Source of the DNA: Gammaproteobacteria bacterium
Lineage (GTDB): Bacteria > Pseudomonadota > Gammaproteobacteria > Enterobacterales > Psychrobiaceae
DNA length: 64,000 bases
Direction of reading: 5' to 3'
Assembly: GCA_013214945.1 (NCBI GenBank)
Contig: JABSRT010000016.1
Coordinates: 1-64,000 of the forward strand
Part shown: positions 35,151-56,186 of the stretch, in pieces
Numbering within the stretch: the stretch's first letter is position 1
Layout of the letters: the number at the start of each line of letters is the position of its first letter
The notes under the pieces: generated by a model
Database searches by the model: none
What the model was told of the DNA's origin: nothing
What the model saw: the letters and a program-made list of their open reading frames with translations, nothing else
Position numbers and translations under genes: made by a program

Positions 35151-37055
35151 TCAGCCGCTAAGCGTCGCCGGAAAAGTAATTTTAAAATGTGCACCCTTTG
35201 ATGATTCAATGCAGTTAATTTCACCCGCTAGTTTAACCGTGACTATATTGTAACTAATCGACATGCCTAAGCCTGACCCACCTGTCGCGCGTGCGGTCGT
35301 ATAAAATGGTTCAAATACTTTTTCTCGTTGCTTTGCATCTAAGCCCAAGCCATTGTCTTGATAATCGATAGATACGGTTTCTTTTATTAAGGTAATAATG
35401 ATGGTGATTTGGCCATTATTCATTGCTTTAAAACCATGTTTGATTGAGTTCATGATTAGGTTGGTTAAAATTTGAGAAATGGCTCCGGGATCACTGATTA
35501 AGTTGATTTGGTGATCGGACTGAACAACGATTGTATGATTGTTTAGGTTTAGCTGTGGCTTTAAGCTATGAATTAACTTATCGAGATAAATATTGAGTTC
35601 AAAGCTACGTATTTGTTCATTACTTTGGTCGACAGCAATCTGTTTAAAATTATGAATTAACTCATCAGCTCGTTCCAAGTTTCTCATTAATATGACACAG
35701 GAATCCTGAACGTTGGTAATAAGCTCTTCCAATGAAGATCTTTTTAGCTGGTTGCTTTGATACTCTTGATCAAATTTTTTGATGATCCCTGACAAATGTG
35801 AAGAAGCTGTTACTGCAATACCTAAGGGCGTATTAATTTCGTGAGAAATACCAGCAACTAAACTGCCCAAAGCTGACATCTTTTCTGATTCGACCAATTT
35901 GCTTTGAGCTTCTTGTAAATTTAATAGTGACACTTCTAGTTCTTGGGTTCTTTGCTGTACTTTATGTTCTAAGTTTTCATTTAGCTCTAGAATTTGTTGT
36001 TCTTTTTTGATGCGGTCAGTAATGTTTGTTGAAATTCCCCCAGTTTCGACCAGCGAGCCATTGTCATCATAAATAGGAAATTTAACCGATAAATAATATT
36101 CAAGGTGATCATTTTTCTCCATTTCTTGCTCGAAAGTGACGGGTTTGGCTTGTTCGATTACCTCTAGGTCATATTTTTGATAGGTCGTTGCCAGTGATGC
36201 TGAAAAGAGCTCTGCATCATTGTGCCCTAATACTTGTTCGTATTCTAAGTTGTGGGTGGTGAGAAATTCCTGATTAACTAAGGTGTAATTACCATTGGTA
36301 TCTTTTGAATAAATTAACGACGGTGAGTTTTCGACAATTGAGTGAATTAATCGTTCTGCCTGCTTTCGTTTGGCCAGTGCTTTAAGTAAATTTTGCTGCA
36401 TGGTATTAATGGCACTAGTTACTCGGTCTAAAACATCTTTGATCGTCGACTTACGTCGCTTTAAAATTAACAACCTAGCTGGATTTTCTAATTTTACGTT
36501 ATATGCCCAACCCGCTAAGCTATTCAAATGGCGGATCACTAATAAATCGATCAGCATTAGAATGCAAATAGACATCAGGAAGGTTTTTACGCCTTGGGTG
36601 ATGAGAATTATTAACGCTTTACCCATAAGCTGTCGATATATCTCGGTGAGAGTAACAACAATTTTTAATTGACCAATAATTATTTGACGATTGCCATCAT
36701 CAGTAAACTTAATTGGATAAAGGCGGGTAAATGCGTTCTCCTCACTTGTTTGACCTAATTCAATAACAGAGTTGGCATAGGTGTCTGCAACCTCAACATA
36801 AATAGTATCTCGTTGGGTCAATACACCATTAAGAATACTGTGCATTACTTCTTTGTCTAATTTCCACATTGCGACTGCAACCGAGGGTAAAACACTCTCT
36901 TGTACTTGATCTAAGTATATTTCTAGAGATTGTCGTGAGTCGCGATAATCAGTATATATTTGGATCATCGTTGCAAATACAGTAAATATGGAACTGAGAA
37001 AAAGAATCCAAAACAACAATCGCATGGAGAGTTTATCGCTCTTACGAAAAAACAC
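35151..37055 (-). CDS. PAS-containing sensor histidine kinase
   Basis: A 634-residue inner-membrane kinase. TM1 is near residues 13-34; a periplasmic sensor of about 110 residues follows; TM2 is near 146-174; then a PAS domain at about 235-348 and a coiled coil at 350-392. The kinase has H-box GISHEINTP (His405), an N-box in the INLISD...LTNLIMNSIKHG region, and GGSGLGMSI. No receiver domain and no response regulator gene adjoins it. The divergent neighbour is an exported substrate-binding protein, a plausible sensing partner. Its kinase core resembles that of the gene at 49498-54396. Confidence 0.92.
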   Translation of the reverse strand: MFFRKSDKLSMRLLFWILFLSSIFTVFATMIQIYTDYRDSRQSLEIYLDQVQESVLPSVAVAMWKLDKEVMHSILNGVLTQRDTIYVEVADTYANSVIELGQTSEENAFTRLYPIKFTDDGNRQIIIGQLKIVVTLTEIYRQLMGKALIILITQGVKTFLMSICILMLIDLLVIRHLNSLAGWAYNVKLENPARLLILKRRKSTIKDVLDRVTSAINTMQQNLLKALAKRKQAERLIHSIVENSPSLIYSKDTNGNYTLVNQEFLTTHNLEYEQVLGHNDAELFSASLATTYQKYDLEVIEQAKPVTFEQEMEKNDHLEYYLSVKFPIYDDNGSLVETGGISTNITDRIKKEQQILELNENLEHKVQQRTQELEVSLLNLQEAQSKLVESEKMSALGSLVAGISHEINTPLGIAVTASSHLSGIIKKFDQEYQSNQLKRSSLEELITNVQDSCVILMRNLERADELIHNFKQIAVDQSNEQIRSFELNIYLDKLIHSLKPQLNLNNHTIVVQSDHQINLISDPGAISQILTNLIMNSIKHGFKAMNNGQITIIITLIKETVSIDYQDNGLGLDAKQREKVFEPFYTTARATGGSGLGMSISYNIVTVKLAGEINCIESSKGAHFKITFPATLSG

Positions 37056-37212
37056 TGTTTCTATGCTCCCATCACGTTCTGTGTAACTTGGGGTTACTAA
37101 TAATAGTTCATTATTGAAGTAAGAGTATTAATAAAAAATTACTACTAATGTGCACCAGTCGGGGCGTTTCTATACTAAACTTAATTGGCCTATAACAAAG
37201 AAGGCTTTAGCT

Positions 37213-49497: not shown

Positions 49498-52400
49498 TTA
49501 GTCGAGTGCGTTATTTGAAATGATACTTTCCGGTTTGAACTTAACCACAAATGTTGTGTATTGCCCTAATTCACTGGCACATTCAATTTTACCATTGAGT
49601 CGATTCGTTACAATGTTATAGATAATATTTAAACCCAAACCACTGCCGCCACTTTCACGATTGGTGGTAAAAAATGGATTAAATATTTTGCTGATGTTTC
49701 CTGGTGAAATACCCGCACCATCGTCGTTATAGGTTAATTTTATCGTTTGTTTAATTACTTCTACTCTTATTAATATAATGCCCGTTTCTTGCTTAGGGTA
49801 GCCATGAATAGTCGAATTAATCAAAAAGTTCGACAATATCTGCGATAAGGCGCCGGGGTAACTGGTTATCTCCAGGCTTTCATCACATTCGACTTTTATC
49901 GTCAGATTGGTTTTTTTAGTGAGATGGAAAATACTCAGCCTAATTTCATCGATATAACTTTTAACGTTAAATGAGCGTTGCTCATCCGAGCTTTGATCAA
50001 CCGATATTTGTTTAAAGCTTCGGACCAAATCCGCCGTTTTTTCCAAATTTCGATTAATAATACGAGCCGATTCGAGGCTCGATTTTAAATAGGTTTCAAA
50101 ATCGGACTGCGACATTTTTTTAAGTTGATATTTCTTATCTAATGATTGGGTAATATCAACAAAATTGGTGATCGCGGTTAGCCCAATACCAACTGGCGTA
50201 TTAATTTCATGGGCAATACCGGCGACTAAAGCACCGAGACTGGCCATTTTTTCTGACTCAACCAAATGTTGTTGAGCTTGTTGTAAATTATCAAAAGATT
50301 GCTCTAATTCTTGGTGGGCAAGCTCGACTTCTTTTTTCGCGGTGGATAATTTTTTAAACACCAAAAAAATTAAAGCTAATATGAATAAAAAGCCCGCAAT
50401 CAATTGATACAGCAGTCGATAATCAACCGCGGTTTTCACTTCACGTTTAATCCAGCGGTCATGAATTTCTTGGTGCTGAGCAAGCGGAATAGCGGCAATC
50501 ACTTTATTGATAATACTCAAAAGTATCGGTTCCCCCTGTTTAACTAACATCCGGTGCGAAAAGCCATAATCGAGTAATCCAACAATCCGTAAATCGCTAA
50601 AATCGTTTTCTAATTGATTGGTTGCCACGGCTAAATGCTCGACAAAAGCGTCAACGTTGCCATTGCGAACCATGGTTAGTGCATCGTTGATGCTTTTGGC
50701 CTCGATAATTTGTGCCGTGGGATAGTGTTGTTTAACGTAATAATAAGAGCTATTACCTTTGGGAATAGCGATTCGCATGTCTTTTAGGTCGTCACGGTCA
50801 CTGACGAAAGACGACTGGCCGTCCATGACAATAGCAAAGTTAAAATAGGCGTATTGGTCAGACAACAGGCCCATCGTTTTATATTCATCGAGGTTAGAGA
50901 CACCAGGAATGAAATCGATCTCATTATTTTTAAACGCGGAGACAACTTCTCGCCACTTATCATATTTTTTATATTCAAACTTGATCCCAGTTTTTTCGGC
51001 GACAATATTCATGTAATCGGCGGTCAGGCCACTAAAATGGCCATTTTCAACAATCACTAATGGCGTCCAAGTTACTTCAGAATAGCTTAAAATGGGGGGT
51101 TTACTGAGGTAGATTCTTTCTTTTAAATTAAACTCAATTTTTTGTTCTAAGTAACCAAAACGTTGATAGGTATCATGAATATATTGCTGATTAGGGTGTT
51201 GTTTGAAGATATCAACATCAGGAATTAAATTTGATCTGGTCAGTTGTTTTTTTACTTGATTATCATTGAAAAACACTCGGACAAAGCCAACTTTTTTAGT
51301 GACATTCTCGAGTAAACCAAAGCTGTCAAATTGGGTGTAATAGTTAAACTTATCATTGGAACTTTGGTGGATTAAAACGTCGTCATTATCGTAAACTTCA
51401 ATTTTATTAATGTATGGCAATAAACCCAATTTATGCGTTATTTGCCCGATTGCCTTGTGGTCTTCTTTATAAACAAAAGGGGCGAGCAAGGAGGAAGTAA
51501 GTGACGTAAGTGCTAATTTGGGTGTGACGACTCCGTGTGAATAATCATCGATAATATGTTGGTATTCGCCTGATTGTTTTAAATTGGCTAAACCACTATT
51601 AAAGGTGTTTCTTAATTCACGGTTACGAAAGGCAACCTGAAATTCATTGGTATTATAAGTTAGTAAGTCATCTACTTGAAAGGCGTCGAGCGTGGTGTAA
51701 CCACGTTCGACCGTTAGCCAACGCAAGATGGTTTTGTCGATAATAATGGCATCGACTTCACCAGAAATTAAGGCATTGATTTGTTGCTCTTGATTAGTGA
51801 TTTCTTGATAAAGGCCTTGAGTATTACTGGCCGAAAATACGGTCATATAGTCAGACCCTAAATGTTGAAAGGCGCCAGTAAATGCCATTACCTTTTTATT
51901 TGCTAAGTCATTTAATTTTTCAAATTTAAAGTGACTGCTCGCCAGTGATACCACCACGTTGTTAAATTGGATAAAGTCATCTGAATAAAAATAACCATCT
52001 TGGCGTTTTTTGACTGTCACTACCGCGTCAAGTTGCGGGTCATTTTTTAATGCCTGGCCTAGCATCGCCAAGGGTAAATTTTTGCTCTCGGATATTGTGA
52101 TCGATTGTTCATCAAAAATTCGTTTTAACAGATCAAATTCAATGCCTTTTAAGTGGCTCTTGTTGAGGGTGAAAGGTTCGCGGCCGAGCCCAAGTGCCAG
52201 TCTGATCGATTTTTTATGCTCGCTGCGGCCAATCCAGCGTTCGACCGCTTGGTTTTTGAATTTCTGCGGGATGCTTTTCATCGATTTATTTAAAATTGAT
52301 TGTAATAATGGTTTGTTTTTTTGTGACCAAAAATATAAACCGCGAGCATGAATATCATTTTGTTTTATTAATTTAATATTATTGATAGCAGAGTTTTTTA

Positions 52401-54396
52401 AAATATAAGAGGTGATAACTTCGGCACTAAAGATCGCATCAACCTTGCCATTAAGTAATAATGTAATGGAGGCTGAGACGTCAGCGGCTGGTACGATATG
52501 AATATCAGAATATTTTTCTTTGACAAAAGTGGCTGTCGCATCACCAGCGACTATCGCTAATTTTTTTCCGTGTAAGTCGGTAAATGAATTGATTAATTTA
52601 TTGCTATTTAACGTATAGATAGCTGAATTCACATTTAAAAATGAATCGCCATATAGACCTATTTTGTTGCGAGTATCAACGAAGTAGGTCGCAGGTAATA
52701 AATCGACTTGTTGCTGTTCAAAATCTGTTAATAATTGCGCCCAAGGTTTAATGATTGGCTTAAACGTTAGTCCAGAAATTTTGGTGATTTGCTGTAGGTA
52801 ATCGCCGATAATGCCATAAATCTCCTTGCCGTCGCTAAAAATTATCGGTTGCCATACTTCTGTACCGACATTTACTATGGGGTTCTCTTTAATATATTGT
52901 AATTCGGCCGTAGTGAATAATGAATCGTTAGTCGTTGACTTGTTATGCCATTTTTTTAATAGCTGCTGATGTTGTTGTGGGGTGATTGAATTTATGCCTT
53001 TGGCTAAAATTGCACTGAGTTCTGGGTGTTGTTTCGAGCTCCCAATCGCATATTGTCCAAATTTCGAAAAAAACGAGCCGGCAATTTTTAAATTATACTG
53101 CGCCAAAAGTTGCGGTTTAGACGCACCAAGGAAAGTGACATCTGCCTCGTTTTTAATCATCGCCACAAAAGCTTGTTCTGCGTCTTTTACATAAACCAGT
53201 TTGGCGTCGGGCAGCTGAGTTTTCAATAGCTCAACCATTGCGTATTCTTTAATGACCGCAATGGTTAGGTCTTTAAGATCGTCAAAGTGTTTAACTTGTT
53301 GGTTGTCGGCTTTGGTAATGATTTTATGGGGGTCAAAAAAGTACGGCGGAGAATAGTTTAAACTTATGGCCCGTTGCTTGGTCCAAGACAATGAAAAAAT
53401 GCCACCAACTTGCCCGTCGATTAGGTCATTGAGGCCTTCCTGCCAAAGTTTATAACGTTTGAGTTGAAAGTGGGTACCCAAGTTTTTATTAATTAATGCC
53501 AACAAATCAACATTGTAACCAGCTGGTGTACCATTTGGGCTAATAAATATAAAAGGATACCAATTAAACGAGCTGGCAATTGCGACATTAGGATTGTTTT
53601 TCAACCAGCGGCGTTCGCTTTTACTTAAAGTCGACGTTCTCAGATCTTCATTAACAATCCAGGTGTTTTCAAGTTCAGTGACTTCATTGACAGAAATCAG
53701 TGCCATCCCTATTTTTACCAGCGATTGCAGCGCTAGATCGTCTTTGGCGACGACAGCATGAATTTTTTTGGTTAAGTAAAAGTCGGATATTTTTTCATAT
53801 TGATGATAATTTAAGTTTTTAATCATCTTAAACCAAGTGTGAACCGACTCGTTAATAAACGCATCTATCACCTGATCGTCCATCGCTTTTATGAGTGAAC
53901 TCAACTCTTGAAAGCGTTTTATTTTAATCAGTGGAAAGTGTAATTGAATATAACTGTCGTACGATCCCCCACCCAAGACGCCAATTTTTTTACCTTTTAA
54001 GTCACTAATTTGGTCAATTTTGTCTTGATCGTTTTTTCTTACGTAGATATGGGCCGTTGTTGTATAAAAAGGGGCGAGCAAGTTCACTGAGCCCAGAGAA
54101 GTTTCACGTTTGAATAAACCCGCATGCATCTGAACCTTGTTTTGCCTAAATGCTGCCGTTGATTCTGAAAATGATAGCGGAATGAATTCAATGTTTCGGT
54201 TAACTTTTCTAGCCCATAACCGCCAGTAATCAACCAAAAAACCTTGAGCCTTGCCGCTATCATCGACAAAACTATAAGGCACTAAATTCTTAAACATTGA
54301 AATTTTGATCGTTGGTTCAACGGATGTTGGCGTGTTTTTTTGTGCTGATACCGGGTAGATAAAAAACATCAACGCCATCAAACATATTAATCGCAT
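49498..54396 (-). CDS. giant sensor histidine kinase with five solute-binding modules
   Basis: 1632 residues from the Met at 54396, which has AAGG upstream and starts a signal-like segment ending SAQ; the frame is open 31 codons further. In the longer numbering: SBP_bac_3-type modules at about 58-280, 286-516, 525-756 and 758-985, then a less similar linker at 986-1115, a fifth at 1116-1368, a membrane helix at 1377-1397, a coiled coil, the H-box GIAHEINTP (His1427), and an ATPase domain with GGSGLGLNI. Modules repeat motifs such as LKGKKIG and ENPIVNVG. No receiver and no response regulator gene adjoins it. Confidence 0.9.
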   Translation of the reverse strand: MRLICLMALMFFIYPVSAQKNTPTSVEPTIKISMFKNLVPYSFVDDSGKAQGFLVDYWRLWARKVNRNIEFIPLSFSESTAAFRQNKVQMHAGLFKRETSLGSVNLLAPFYTTTAHIYVRKNDQDKIDQISDLKGKKIGVLGGGSYDSYIQLHFPLIKIKRFQELSSLIKAMDDQVIDAFINESVHTWFKMIKNLNYHQYEKISDFYLTKKIHAVVAKDDLALQSLVKIGMALISVNEVTELENTWIVNEDLRTSTLSKSERRWLKNNPNVAIASSFNWYPFIFISPNGTPAGYNVDLLALINKNLGTHFQLKRYKLWQEGLNDLIDGQVGGIFSLSWTKQRAISLNYSPPYFFDPHKIITKADNQQVKHFDDLKDLTIAVIKEYAMVELLKTQLPDAKLVYVKDAEQAFVAMIKNEADVTFLGASKPQLLAQYNLKIAGSFFSKFGQYAIGSSKQHPELSAILAKGINSITPQQHQQLLKKWHNKSTTNDSLFTTAELQYIKENPIVNVGTEVWQPIIFSDGKEIYGIIGDYLQQITKISGLTFKPIIKPWAQLLTDFEQQQVDLLPATYFVDTRNKIGLYGDSFLNVNSAIYTLNSNKLINSFTDLHGKKLAIVAGDATATFVKEKYSDIHIVPAADVSASITLLLNGKVDAIFSAEVITSYILKNSAINNIKLIKQNDIHARGLYFWSQKNKPLLQSILNKSMKSIPQKFKNQAVERWIGRSEHKKSIRLALGLGREPFTLNKSHLKGIEFDLLKRIFDEQSITISESKNLPLAMLGQALKNDPQLDAVVTVKKRQDGYFYSDDFIQFNNVVVSLASSHFKFEKLNDLANKKVMAFTGAFQHLGSDYMTVFSASNTQGLYQEITNQEQQINALISGEVDAIIIDKTILRWLTVERGYTTLDAFQVDDLLTYNTNEFQVAFRNRELRNTFNSGLANLKQSGEYQHIIDDYSHGVVTPKLALTSLTSSLLAPFVYKEDHKAIGQITHKLGLLPYINKIEVYDNDDVLIHQSSNDKFNYYTQFDSFGLLENVTKKVGFVRVFFNDNQVKKQLTRSNLIPDVDIFKQHPNQQYIHDTYQRFGYLEQKIEFNLKERIYLSKPPILSYSEVTWTPLVIVENGHFSGLTADYMNIVAEKTGIKFEYKKYDKWREVVSAFKNNEIDFIPGVSNLDEYKTMGLLSDQYAYFNFAIVMDGQSSFVSDRDDLKDMRIAIPKGNSSYYYVKQHYPTAQIIEAKSINDALTMVRNGNVDAFVEHLAVATNQLENDFSDLRIVGLLDYGFSHRMLVKQGEPILLSIINKVIAAIPLAQHQEIHDRWIKREVKTAVDYRLLYQLIAGFLFILALIFLVFKKLSTAKKEVELAHQELEQSFDNLQQAQQHLVESEKMASLGALVAGIAHEINTPVGIGLTAITNFVDITQSLDKKYQLKKMSQSDFETYLKSSLESARIINRNLEKTADLVRSFKQISVDQSSDEQRSFNVKSYIDEIRLSIFHLTKKTNLTIKVECDESLEITSYPGALSQILSNFLINSTIHGYPKQETGIILIRVEVIKQTIKLTYNDDGAGISPGNISKIFNPFFTTNRESGGSGLGLNIIYNIVTNRLNGKIECASELGQYTTFVVKFKPESIISNNALD

Positions 54397-54640
54397 CAAT
54401 TTATACCTTTTTTTATTGGTTTTGTTGATAAAGATAAAAAGTTTAGATAATGAAATTGTCGTTAGCTTGATCTTAGGTGCTTTACTCAAATCTACAGTGA
54501 GTATAGAAATATTAGCGTAATTTTTCAGTAAATATAATCTCCAGAAGCGTTTTAATTAAAATCGGCTTTATCAGGAGAAAAATAACAGCGATAAATAACA
54601 GTATTAAATAAGTACTTTACTTTTGACTTAAATCTAAATA

Positions 54641-55375: not shown

Positions 55376-55879
55376 ATGTTCCATAAGTTAGTTTCAAATT
55401 TAGATAAAACATTCAAGTTTTCGACGGTATCGGCTCATTGTGATATTCCTTGTAAGATATACGATCCAAGTGCTGCTCAAATTGCGGTACTAACAATGAT
55501 CCGAATGGTCGATTTATTGGAAGAGTTAAACCAAAAATCATCATTAACAGCCAACGAGCAAGCGCAATTTTCACGTTTAGTCGCGCAAAAAGAAGAGCAT
55601 GGTTTAAAAGCCAAAGCTGAAATCTGTGTTATTTGGGGCGACTACATTAAGCAACCACAGCTTGATCAATTCCCTGAGCTACATACTTTAGTGCACAGCA
55701 TCATGCTGACGGCATCGAAAGCAAAGCAAGAAATAGATAAAGCCGTGACCTTGGATTTATTAGACAAGGTTAATCGCTTTGCTGATATCTTTTGGCAGTC
55801 AAAAGGTGTGGCGACGTTTACTGCGACTTGTCCATACCCTCCGGCACAAACCGTGGTTTACCCGAAACTGGGCGCCTAA
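55376..55879 (+). CDS. sodN: nickel superoxide dismutase
   Basis: A 167-residue precursor of the homohexameric Ni-SOD, which converts superoxide to oxygen and peroxide. A 20-residue leader is followed by the nickel hook HCDIPCKIYDP: after cleavage His21 becomes His1, with Cys22 and Cys26 (mature Cys2 and Cys6) as ligands. The rest is a four-helix bundle with KEEHGLKAKAEICVIWGDYIK and a conserved VATFTATCPYPP C-terminus. Length fits the family. sodX, the leader peptidase, starts one base after the stop. Confidence 0.96.
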   Translation: MFHKLVSNLDKTFKFSTVSAHCDIPCKIYDPSAAQIAVLTMIRMVDLLEELNQKSSLTANEQAQFSRLVAQKEEHGLKAKAEICVIWGDYIKQPQLDQFPELHTLVHSIMLTASKAKQEIDKAVTLDLLDKVNRFADIFWQSKGVATFTATCPYPPAQTVVYPKLGA

Positions 55880-55880
55880 T

Positions 55881-56186
55881 GTGTTCGGCTTGCACTTTAG
55901 CAAGGTTATTGGCCGTAGTATGTCACCGCAAATACCGCAAGACAGCTATGTGTTAGTGATGCCTTGGTTAAAAATATTAGCGCTTAAACGCGGTAATATT
56001 ATTAAGGTCAAGCACCCCCAATATGGTGAAATAATAAAATCTGTCGCGGCCATTGATAACGATGGCTGCATTTGGTTGCAGGGCTTGGATCCTAGCAGTG
56101 TCACTATGGCACAAATGGGGCCGATTTCAGCATCCCAAGTGTTAGGTAAAGTGATAAAGGTTATCGCGCCTAATTCGCGACCTTAA
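55881..56186 (+). CDS. sodX: NiSOD leader peptidase SodX (S26 family)
   Basis: A 101-residue peptidase that would trim the SodN leader so the new N-terminal His can bind nickel. The catalytic Ser13 is in the GRSMSP motif and Lys53 in IIKSV; no membrane helix precedes them, as in SodX rather than LepB. The GTG at 55881 is chosen: it is one base after the sodN stop and the longer open frame runs back inside sodN. The operon ends at a strong hairpin downstream. Confidence 0.9.
   Translation: MFGLHFSKVIGRSMSPQIPQDSYVLVMPWLKILALKRGNIIKVKHPQYGEIIKSVAAIDNDGCIWLQGLDPSSVTMAQMGPISASQVLGKVIKVIAPNSRP

Follow-up and report, generated by a model that had tools for sequence, protein, structure and literature searches.

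A receiver-less sensor kinase with five tandem VFT modules and a probable PAS-like insert: layout, relatives and putative output

The window (the whole 64,000-nucleotide stretch of Psychrobiaceae DNA analysed here) carries a gene for a large sensor kinase on its minus strand. The open reading frame, 49498-54489 (-), runs uninterrupted from a TTG, and an ATG at 54396 opens an apparent signal peptide. The source bacterium has marine relatives. The gene and its parts, with VFT for the Venus flytrap module (SBP_bac_3), are:

49498-54396 (-): five-VFT sensor kinase gene, 1632 aa; alternative TTG start at 54489
54343-54396 (-): apparent signal peptide at the N-terminus, aa 1-18, from visual reading of the sequence
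53647-54309 (-): VFT module M1, aa 30-250; missing in 5 of 14 copies in the genus
52936-53586 (-): VFT module M2, aa 271-487, placed by profile and Pfam
52222-52878 (-): VFT module M3, aa 507-725, placed by profile and Pfam
51529-52206 (-): VFT module M4, aa 731-956, of the VFT class that precedes the insert
51235-51528 (-): probable PAS-like insert domain of about 100 residues, aa 957-1054; previously read as a 'divergent linker'
51094-51234 (-): stretch joining the insert to M5, aa 1055-1101, modelled as mainly helical
50440-51093 (-): membrane-proximal VFT module M5, aa 1102-1319, placed by profile and model
50335-50427 (-): single transmembrane helix, aa 1324-1354, from hydropathy and model
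50044-50238 (-): phosphoacceptor region with an AHEINTP stretch, aa 1387-1451; HisKA match below cut-off
49531-49851 (-): HATPase_c catalytic domain, aa 1516-1622, with no receiver or HPt after it

In Pfam, the protein matches SBP_bac_3 in five places (whole-protein E 7.8e-65) and has a HATPase_c domain (E 7.8e-19), after which it stops with no receiver or HPt domain. All five SBP_bac_3 modules exceed the Pfam cut-off in a six-frame scan (E 1.5e-15 to 2.3e-6), and a family-iterated profile, which was built from the same family and is thus not independent, places them at E 5e-53 to 1e-77. HisKA (PF00512) is found at E 0.0054, below the curated Pfam cut-off and outside the E < 0.001 criterion given in the available text of Lesne et al. 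(2018; PMC5829827), who analysed two-VFT kinases. A hydropathy scan shows one strongly hydrophobic segment, aa 1324-1354; the signal-peptide stretch stays under the threshold in the window copy and reaches it in two full-length relatives. A cytoplasmic PAS domain is absent from the window copy and present in some relatives (Pfam). With at least one extracytoplasmic SBP_bac_3 domain and a kinase, the protein falls within the broad definition of VFT-containing sensor kinases. A first-pass annotation, made from the sequence alone, had described five binding modules, one membrane helix and a kinase without receiver, and this description holds; it had named fewer than four SBP_bac_3 modules, or a mis-joined frame, as what would tell against it, and five are over the cut-off.

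The frame itself is intact. A paralogue in the same genome (contig G000:C11; 1635 aa, five SBP_bac_3) aligns over the full length at 44% identity, and a relative in genome G004 of the genus does so at 58% protein identity; the two together rule out mis-joining. Codon positions 1/2/3 of the window copy and the G004 relative differ by 0.30/0.21/0.56, with dS saturated or undefined. A search with the linker between M4 and M5 as query returns 14 copies in seven of the nine genomes of the genus (the window copy, the paralogue and 12 others), all of which have the linker by construction. Seven of these carry five VFTs in one frame, five carry four (M1 missing) and two have broken or gapped frames; M4 and M5 are kept in all 14, and M1 is absent in five. 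Three kinase paralogues lie in a row on one strand in G004 (L026:4729-19274), the third with a broken frame, and another genome of the genus has two in a row.

How old is the array? The five modules are mutually 12-23% identical, the nearest module in another protein holds the same position for 59 of 59 modules, and M1, M2, M4 and M5 form one clade each (support 0.98-1.0), M3 being no single clade. The five-VFT stack is an old, ordered array, because its modules are this divergent, position-specific and mostly resolved into one clade per position. The identities and position-specific classes likewise rule out that one module was duplicated in tandem in recent times. Repeats within the gene, searched at the DNA level, amount to a single direct pair (32 nt at 72%) and three inverted pairs, which are weak.

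A scan of genome contigs gives nine loci. Seven belong to the family of the window kinase and come from gammaproteobacterial MAGs (two labelled Psychrobiaceae) and from 'Alteromonadales bacterium alter-6D02'; the other two are desulfobacterial multi-VFT kinases, which match only beyond the insert. Among 66 pattern matches in viral contigs, no relative was confirmed.

What might the kinase signal to? On one flank of the gene are FMN-dependent dehydrogenase, DUF1287 and U32 peptidase proteins, and on the other a TPR-like protein, a nickel superoxide dismutase and an S24/S26 peptidase (Pfam). The dismutase gene and the overlapping S24/S26-type peptidase frame, the latter below cut-off, occupy 55376-56186 (+); this frame perhaps encodes the maturation protease of the dismutase. 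Among the neighbours viewed in the 44-60 kb region, six of them scanned with Pfam, there is no adjoining regulator gene, as the first reading had stated, nor an HD-GYP gene. Querying the surroundings of the genus copies with REC and HD-GYP gave no relatives, in a search that is insensitive, because it missed an OmpR-type regulator, accompanied by its own kinase, about 4 kb from the four-VFT copy in genome G005.

In both receiver-less orthologues found outside the genus (G990 and G992), a gene for a REC-PAS-PAS-HD-GYP regulator begins 35 bases downstream of the kinase; the G990 kinase has 1444 aa, four VFTs and the same kinase type, and the G992 sequence is partial. As the HD-GYP regulator follows the kinase in both, it serves as a pointer to c-di-GMP, and an output of this kind for the window kinase is a reasoned guess. 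In the source genome, a relative of the kinase domain on contig C20 is followed by a REC-DUF3369-HD regulator, and contig C4 encodes, at 215109-216665, a REC-DUF3369-HD-GYP protein whose HD-GYP part is 60% identical to that of G990. The C4 protein is the best candidate partner in this genome. Co-occurrence of the kinase with this orphan regulator is uninformative, as the regulator is present in nine of nine genomes of the genus, including one in which no kinase was found.

Signalling to a DNA-binding regulator instead of to c-di-GMP keeps a real, if minority, chance. BvgS and EvgS signal to such regulators, the neighbours viewed at the window locus include no HD-GYP gene, and OmpR-type regulators, each beside a kinase of its own, are present near the G005 copy and in G990, where the pair lies beyond the HD-GYP gene on the opposite strand. 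Against it, the HD-GYP gene directly follows both orthologous kinases outside the genus. The regulator after the C20 relative also argues against DNA-binding output, as does a GGDEF gene that lies ahead of two of three copies of the 1763-aa type in the same orientation (upstream sequence is missing for the third). In G002 the end of an EAL-domain gene (L032:193-567) lies about 4 kb from the kinase copy on the opposite strand, a weak c-di-GMP neighbour.

Five tandem VFTs in one kinase are already known and not new, because BvgS homologues contain one to five in the available text of Dupré et al. (2015; PMC4352136). The 'one or two modules known' of the first-pass annotation is accordingly too low, and the integration of several ligands, which it put forward as a possible role, had been suggested for several signals in the same paper. 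Its other suggestion was a long spring, whereas the available text of that paper argues for a dimer that is compact and intertwined. Kinases with long VFT stacks have been counted; the puzzle they pose is how so remote a domain, over 1000 residues away from the membrane, could influence the kinase.

Do the distal modules bind solutes at all? The classic amino-acid contacts are the Arg and Asp of HisJ, and no module class jointly conserves both. M2 has the Arg in 12 of 12 sequences and the Asp in none; all 14 M4 sequences have the Asp, and one has the Arg; an invariant His replaces the Asp in M5, and M1 and M3 are mixed. A classic amino-acid receptor is not supported by these pocket residues. 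The distal VFTs might have lost binding and work chiefly as a mechanical scaffold or spring of the dimer, responding to pH, redox or envelope stress instead of to solutes. The lack of a jointly conserved contact pair in any class fits such a role, and so does the VFT2 of BvgS, which is closed without ligand (PMC4352136, available text). Conserved residues and class, however, are specific to each module position, which is what separate binding sites would predict, and a scaffold without binding appears rather unlikely.

The stretch between M4 and M5 stands out as the less familiar part of the protein. It matches no Pfam family over the cut-off in any of the 14 members, and the window's own insert has no Pfam match at all. 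Weak, sub-threshold matches are found for CHASE8 (PF17152; 3 of 14 inserts, best E 0.091), CHASE5 (PF17149; 2 of 14, best E 0.0035) and LapD_MoxY_N (1 of 14, E 0.11), the gathering score being reached by neither CHASE8 nor CHASE5; five unrelated families match one insert each, the best (DUF3673, E 0.021) beating CHASE8 in one member. A PDB sequence search with the linker profile gives a best E of 0.009, which covers the last VFT helix only, followed by 0.19. Comparison of the insert with the CHASE5 domain of another kinase in the window, at 35154-37127, was not significant.

AlphaFold models of M4-linker-M5 were built from 11 sequences; the best of five has a mean pLDDT of 82.1 and pTM of 0.59, the other four having pLDDT 67.9-72.6. 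The predicted insert opens with a long and then a short helix, continues in strands and closes with a helix, with block mean pLDDT of 89-94 over the first 60 residues and then 74, 52 (a loop), 92 and 80; modelled alone, it reaches 71.5. Foldseek places the sensor domains of WalK, YycG, the LapD orthologue CdgS9, CitA, DctB and KinD among the top matches of the insert alone, all of them weak (best E 0.008, none below 0.001). The model topology and the Foldseek neighbours agree with a PAS-like fold, with that best E of 0.008 and one good model of five. CHASE-type domains are flanked by membrane helices, and here the only hydrophobic segment of the protein lies after M5. On weak Pfam matches, predicted topology and weak structural neighbours, the insert is probably a separate PAS-like periplasmic domain, without flanking membrane helices and outside the named families. 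The 'divergent linker' of the first reading is a real stretch between modules 4 and 5 and probably a domain in its own right, not a mere linker; that reading as a whole stands in part, in its layout, and falls in the novelty of five VFTs and in its view of the linker.

Is the insert confined to the genus? A single-sequence search suggested so, with matches in seven of 295 genomes, all from the genus, and was overturned by the profile. Linker-profile matches occur in five of 398 phylum-sample genomes (three outside the genus), in three of 144 relatives of genome G511, G511 included, and in 27 of 394 genomes of the order: eight from the genus, one with a fragment only, four with short proteins and 15 others, of which five (G017, G050, G082, G267 and G286) were looked at. 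Two of the short proteins (L154:1118-2245 and L161:919-2424) are membrane proteins with hydrophobic segments on both sides of the domain; both give SMP_2 matches and one gives CHASE8, all under the cut-off.

Eleven insert-bearing proteins beyond the 14 copies, two of them from the genus, were examined, and in all 11 the class that best fits the VFT ahead of the insert is M4 (for G082 through a partial match of 21 bits); ten of these proteins came via the insert profile and G511 via the ectodomain, so that the search began from the insert and not from M4, and the first 20 or so positions of the insert profile are the last helix of M4. M4 is the best class for none of 16 VFTs in five multi-VFT proteins that lack the insert. 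Nine of the 11 have an M5-class VFT after the insert; VFTs of proteins that lack the insert fit this class as well. In G777 and G670 no VFT comes after the insert, and about 60 residues separate it from the next hydrophobic segment. Since the M4 class precedes the insert in every case and is best for no VFT without it, the M4-class VFT and the insert are, on these comparisons, probably an inherited two-domain cassette in otherwise different kinases.

That the protein is an ordinary large BvgS homologue, with five VFTs sensing several nutrients and the linker a degenerate spacer with no role of its own, is quite improbable: the known range of one to five VFTs (PMC4352136, available text), the lack of a sequence family that claims the insert and its lower conservation (identity to the G004 relative 52%, as against 76% for the kinase) favour it, but the insert folds with fair to high confidence in context (AlphaFold) and recurs in 11 further proteins of several architectures, always after the same VFT class.

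The conserved core consists of the M4-class VFT, the insert (predicted to be PAS-like), the M5-class VFT, the membrane helix, a cytoplasmic linker and a receiver-less kinase, in this order, with M1-M3 as distal modules, putatively for sensing, that vary between relatives. When small solutes bind to or leave the distal VFTs of a homodimer, these modules would open and pack differently. M4 and the PAS-like insert, which a run of helices links in the model, would hand this change on to M5, and M5, resting on the membrane helix, would set how far kinase or phosphatase activity prevails, in the manner proposed for BvgS. From the kinase, the phosphoryl group would most likely go to a separate c-di-GMP regulator, with receiver and HD-GYP domains, encoded elsewhere in the genome.

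More generally, the M4-class VFT and PAS-like insert might form a transferable relay. It would gather the states of one to five distal VFTs and act as a gate on the membrane-proximal VFT; in two lineages the gated part would be the membrane helix itself. This generalization is offered tentatively and is at present doubtful. Taken jointly, a VFT-containing transmembrane sensor kinase working like BvgS and EvgS, with the core, dimer mechanics and c-di-GMP output described, is a reasonably probable reading of the gene. The conserved VFT and PAS-like cassette beside the last VFT is a concrete, removable part, and the HD-GYP gene after the orthologous kinases a concrete candidate output to c-di-GMP. 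If such a relay exists, it would account for the control of one kinase by very long stacks of binding domains, and the insert would be a second periplasmic point of sensing or dimerization.

Similarities to known systems are partial. Like BvgS and EvgS, the window kinase has tandem SBP_bac_3 domains, one membrane helix and a kinase; unlike them, it has a probable PAS-like domain between the last two VFTs and a weak HisKA match, and lacks receiver, HPt and cytoplasmic PAS domains (the last present in some relatives). BvgS proper, a dimer in which strain in the periplasm sets the kinase-on state, has a receiver and HPt after the kinase, whereas the window protein ends after HATPase_c. In a PDB ranking with the modelled M4-insert-M5, a comparison that covers this part of the protein only, the BvgS periplasmic domain is first (4q0c, E 1.9e-27), followed by GlnPQ SBD1-2, with EvgS (9ilw) fourth; the single VFT2 (3mpk) has a TM-score of 0.78 by target length. 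The insert resembles CHASE8, CHASE5 and LapD_MoxY_N domains through weak Pfam matches in few members and the Foldseek match to LapD-type CdgS9, but its Pfam matches are below cut-offs, and its neighbours on either side are VFTs where those domains have membrane helices. CdgH, in the available text of PMC5431781, is a diguanylate cyclase with two tandem periplasmic binding domains and thus shares the link of such domains to c-di-GMP; CdgH is itself the cyclase, whereas the window protein is a kinase with a putative separate partner. Hybrid kinases of the same order (G017, G050, G267, G286 and G082) share the M4-insert-M5 sequence of domains but have three VFTs only and add receiver(s) and HPt, by sequence a built-in phosphorelay (Pfam on G017 and G286).

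In the literature searched, mostly outside subscription journals, nothing on the insert was listed for VFT (SBP_bac_3) kinases that have several VFTs or a further kind of periplasmic domain, nor was any report of a VFT with Cache. CHASE8 and CHASE5 papers were mostly unrelated among the matches listed, one concerning a diguanylate cyclase. The combination of VFT stack and probable PAS-like insert does not turn up in the literature searched, and may help to relay the signal.

Several other constructs were encountered. The kinase at 35154-37127 (-) in the window is a second receiver-less one, its kinase domain 45% identical to that of the five-VFT protein, with CHASE5 over the Pfam cut-off and a PAS domain. 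Two three-VFT relatives of the kinase (L155:2207-8000 and L156:2343-7499), both with broken frames, are followed by a large protein with a Cadherin match in L155 and no Pfam match in L156, which we take to resemble a LapA-type adhesin. In G511 a hybrid kinase (L078:2481-9281) has an NMT1-type binding domain before M3-M4-insert-M5, i.e. two families of binding protein in one sensor. The 3317-aa hybrid kinase of G670 (L098:3385-13335) combines six SBP_bac_3 domains and the insert with hydrophobic segments, PAS domains, a kinase, two receivers and an HPt; its six VFTs exceed the one to five given for BvgS homologues in the available text of PMC4352136.
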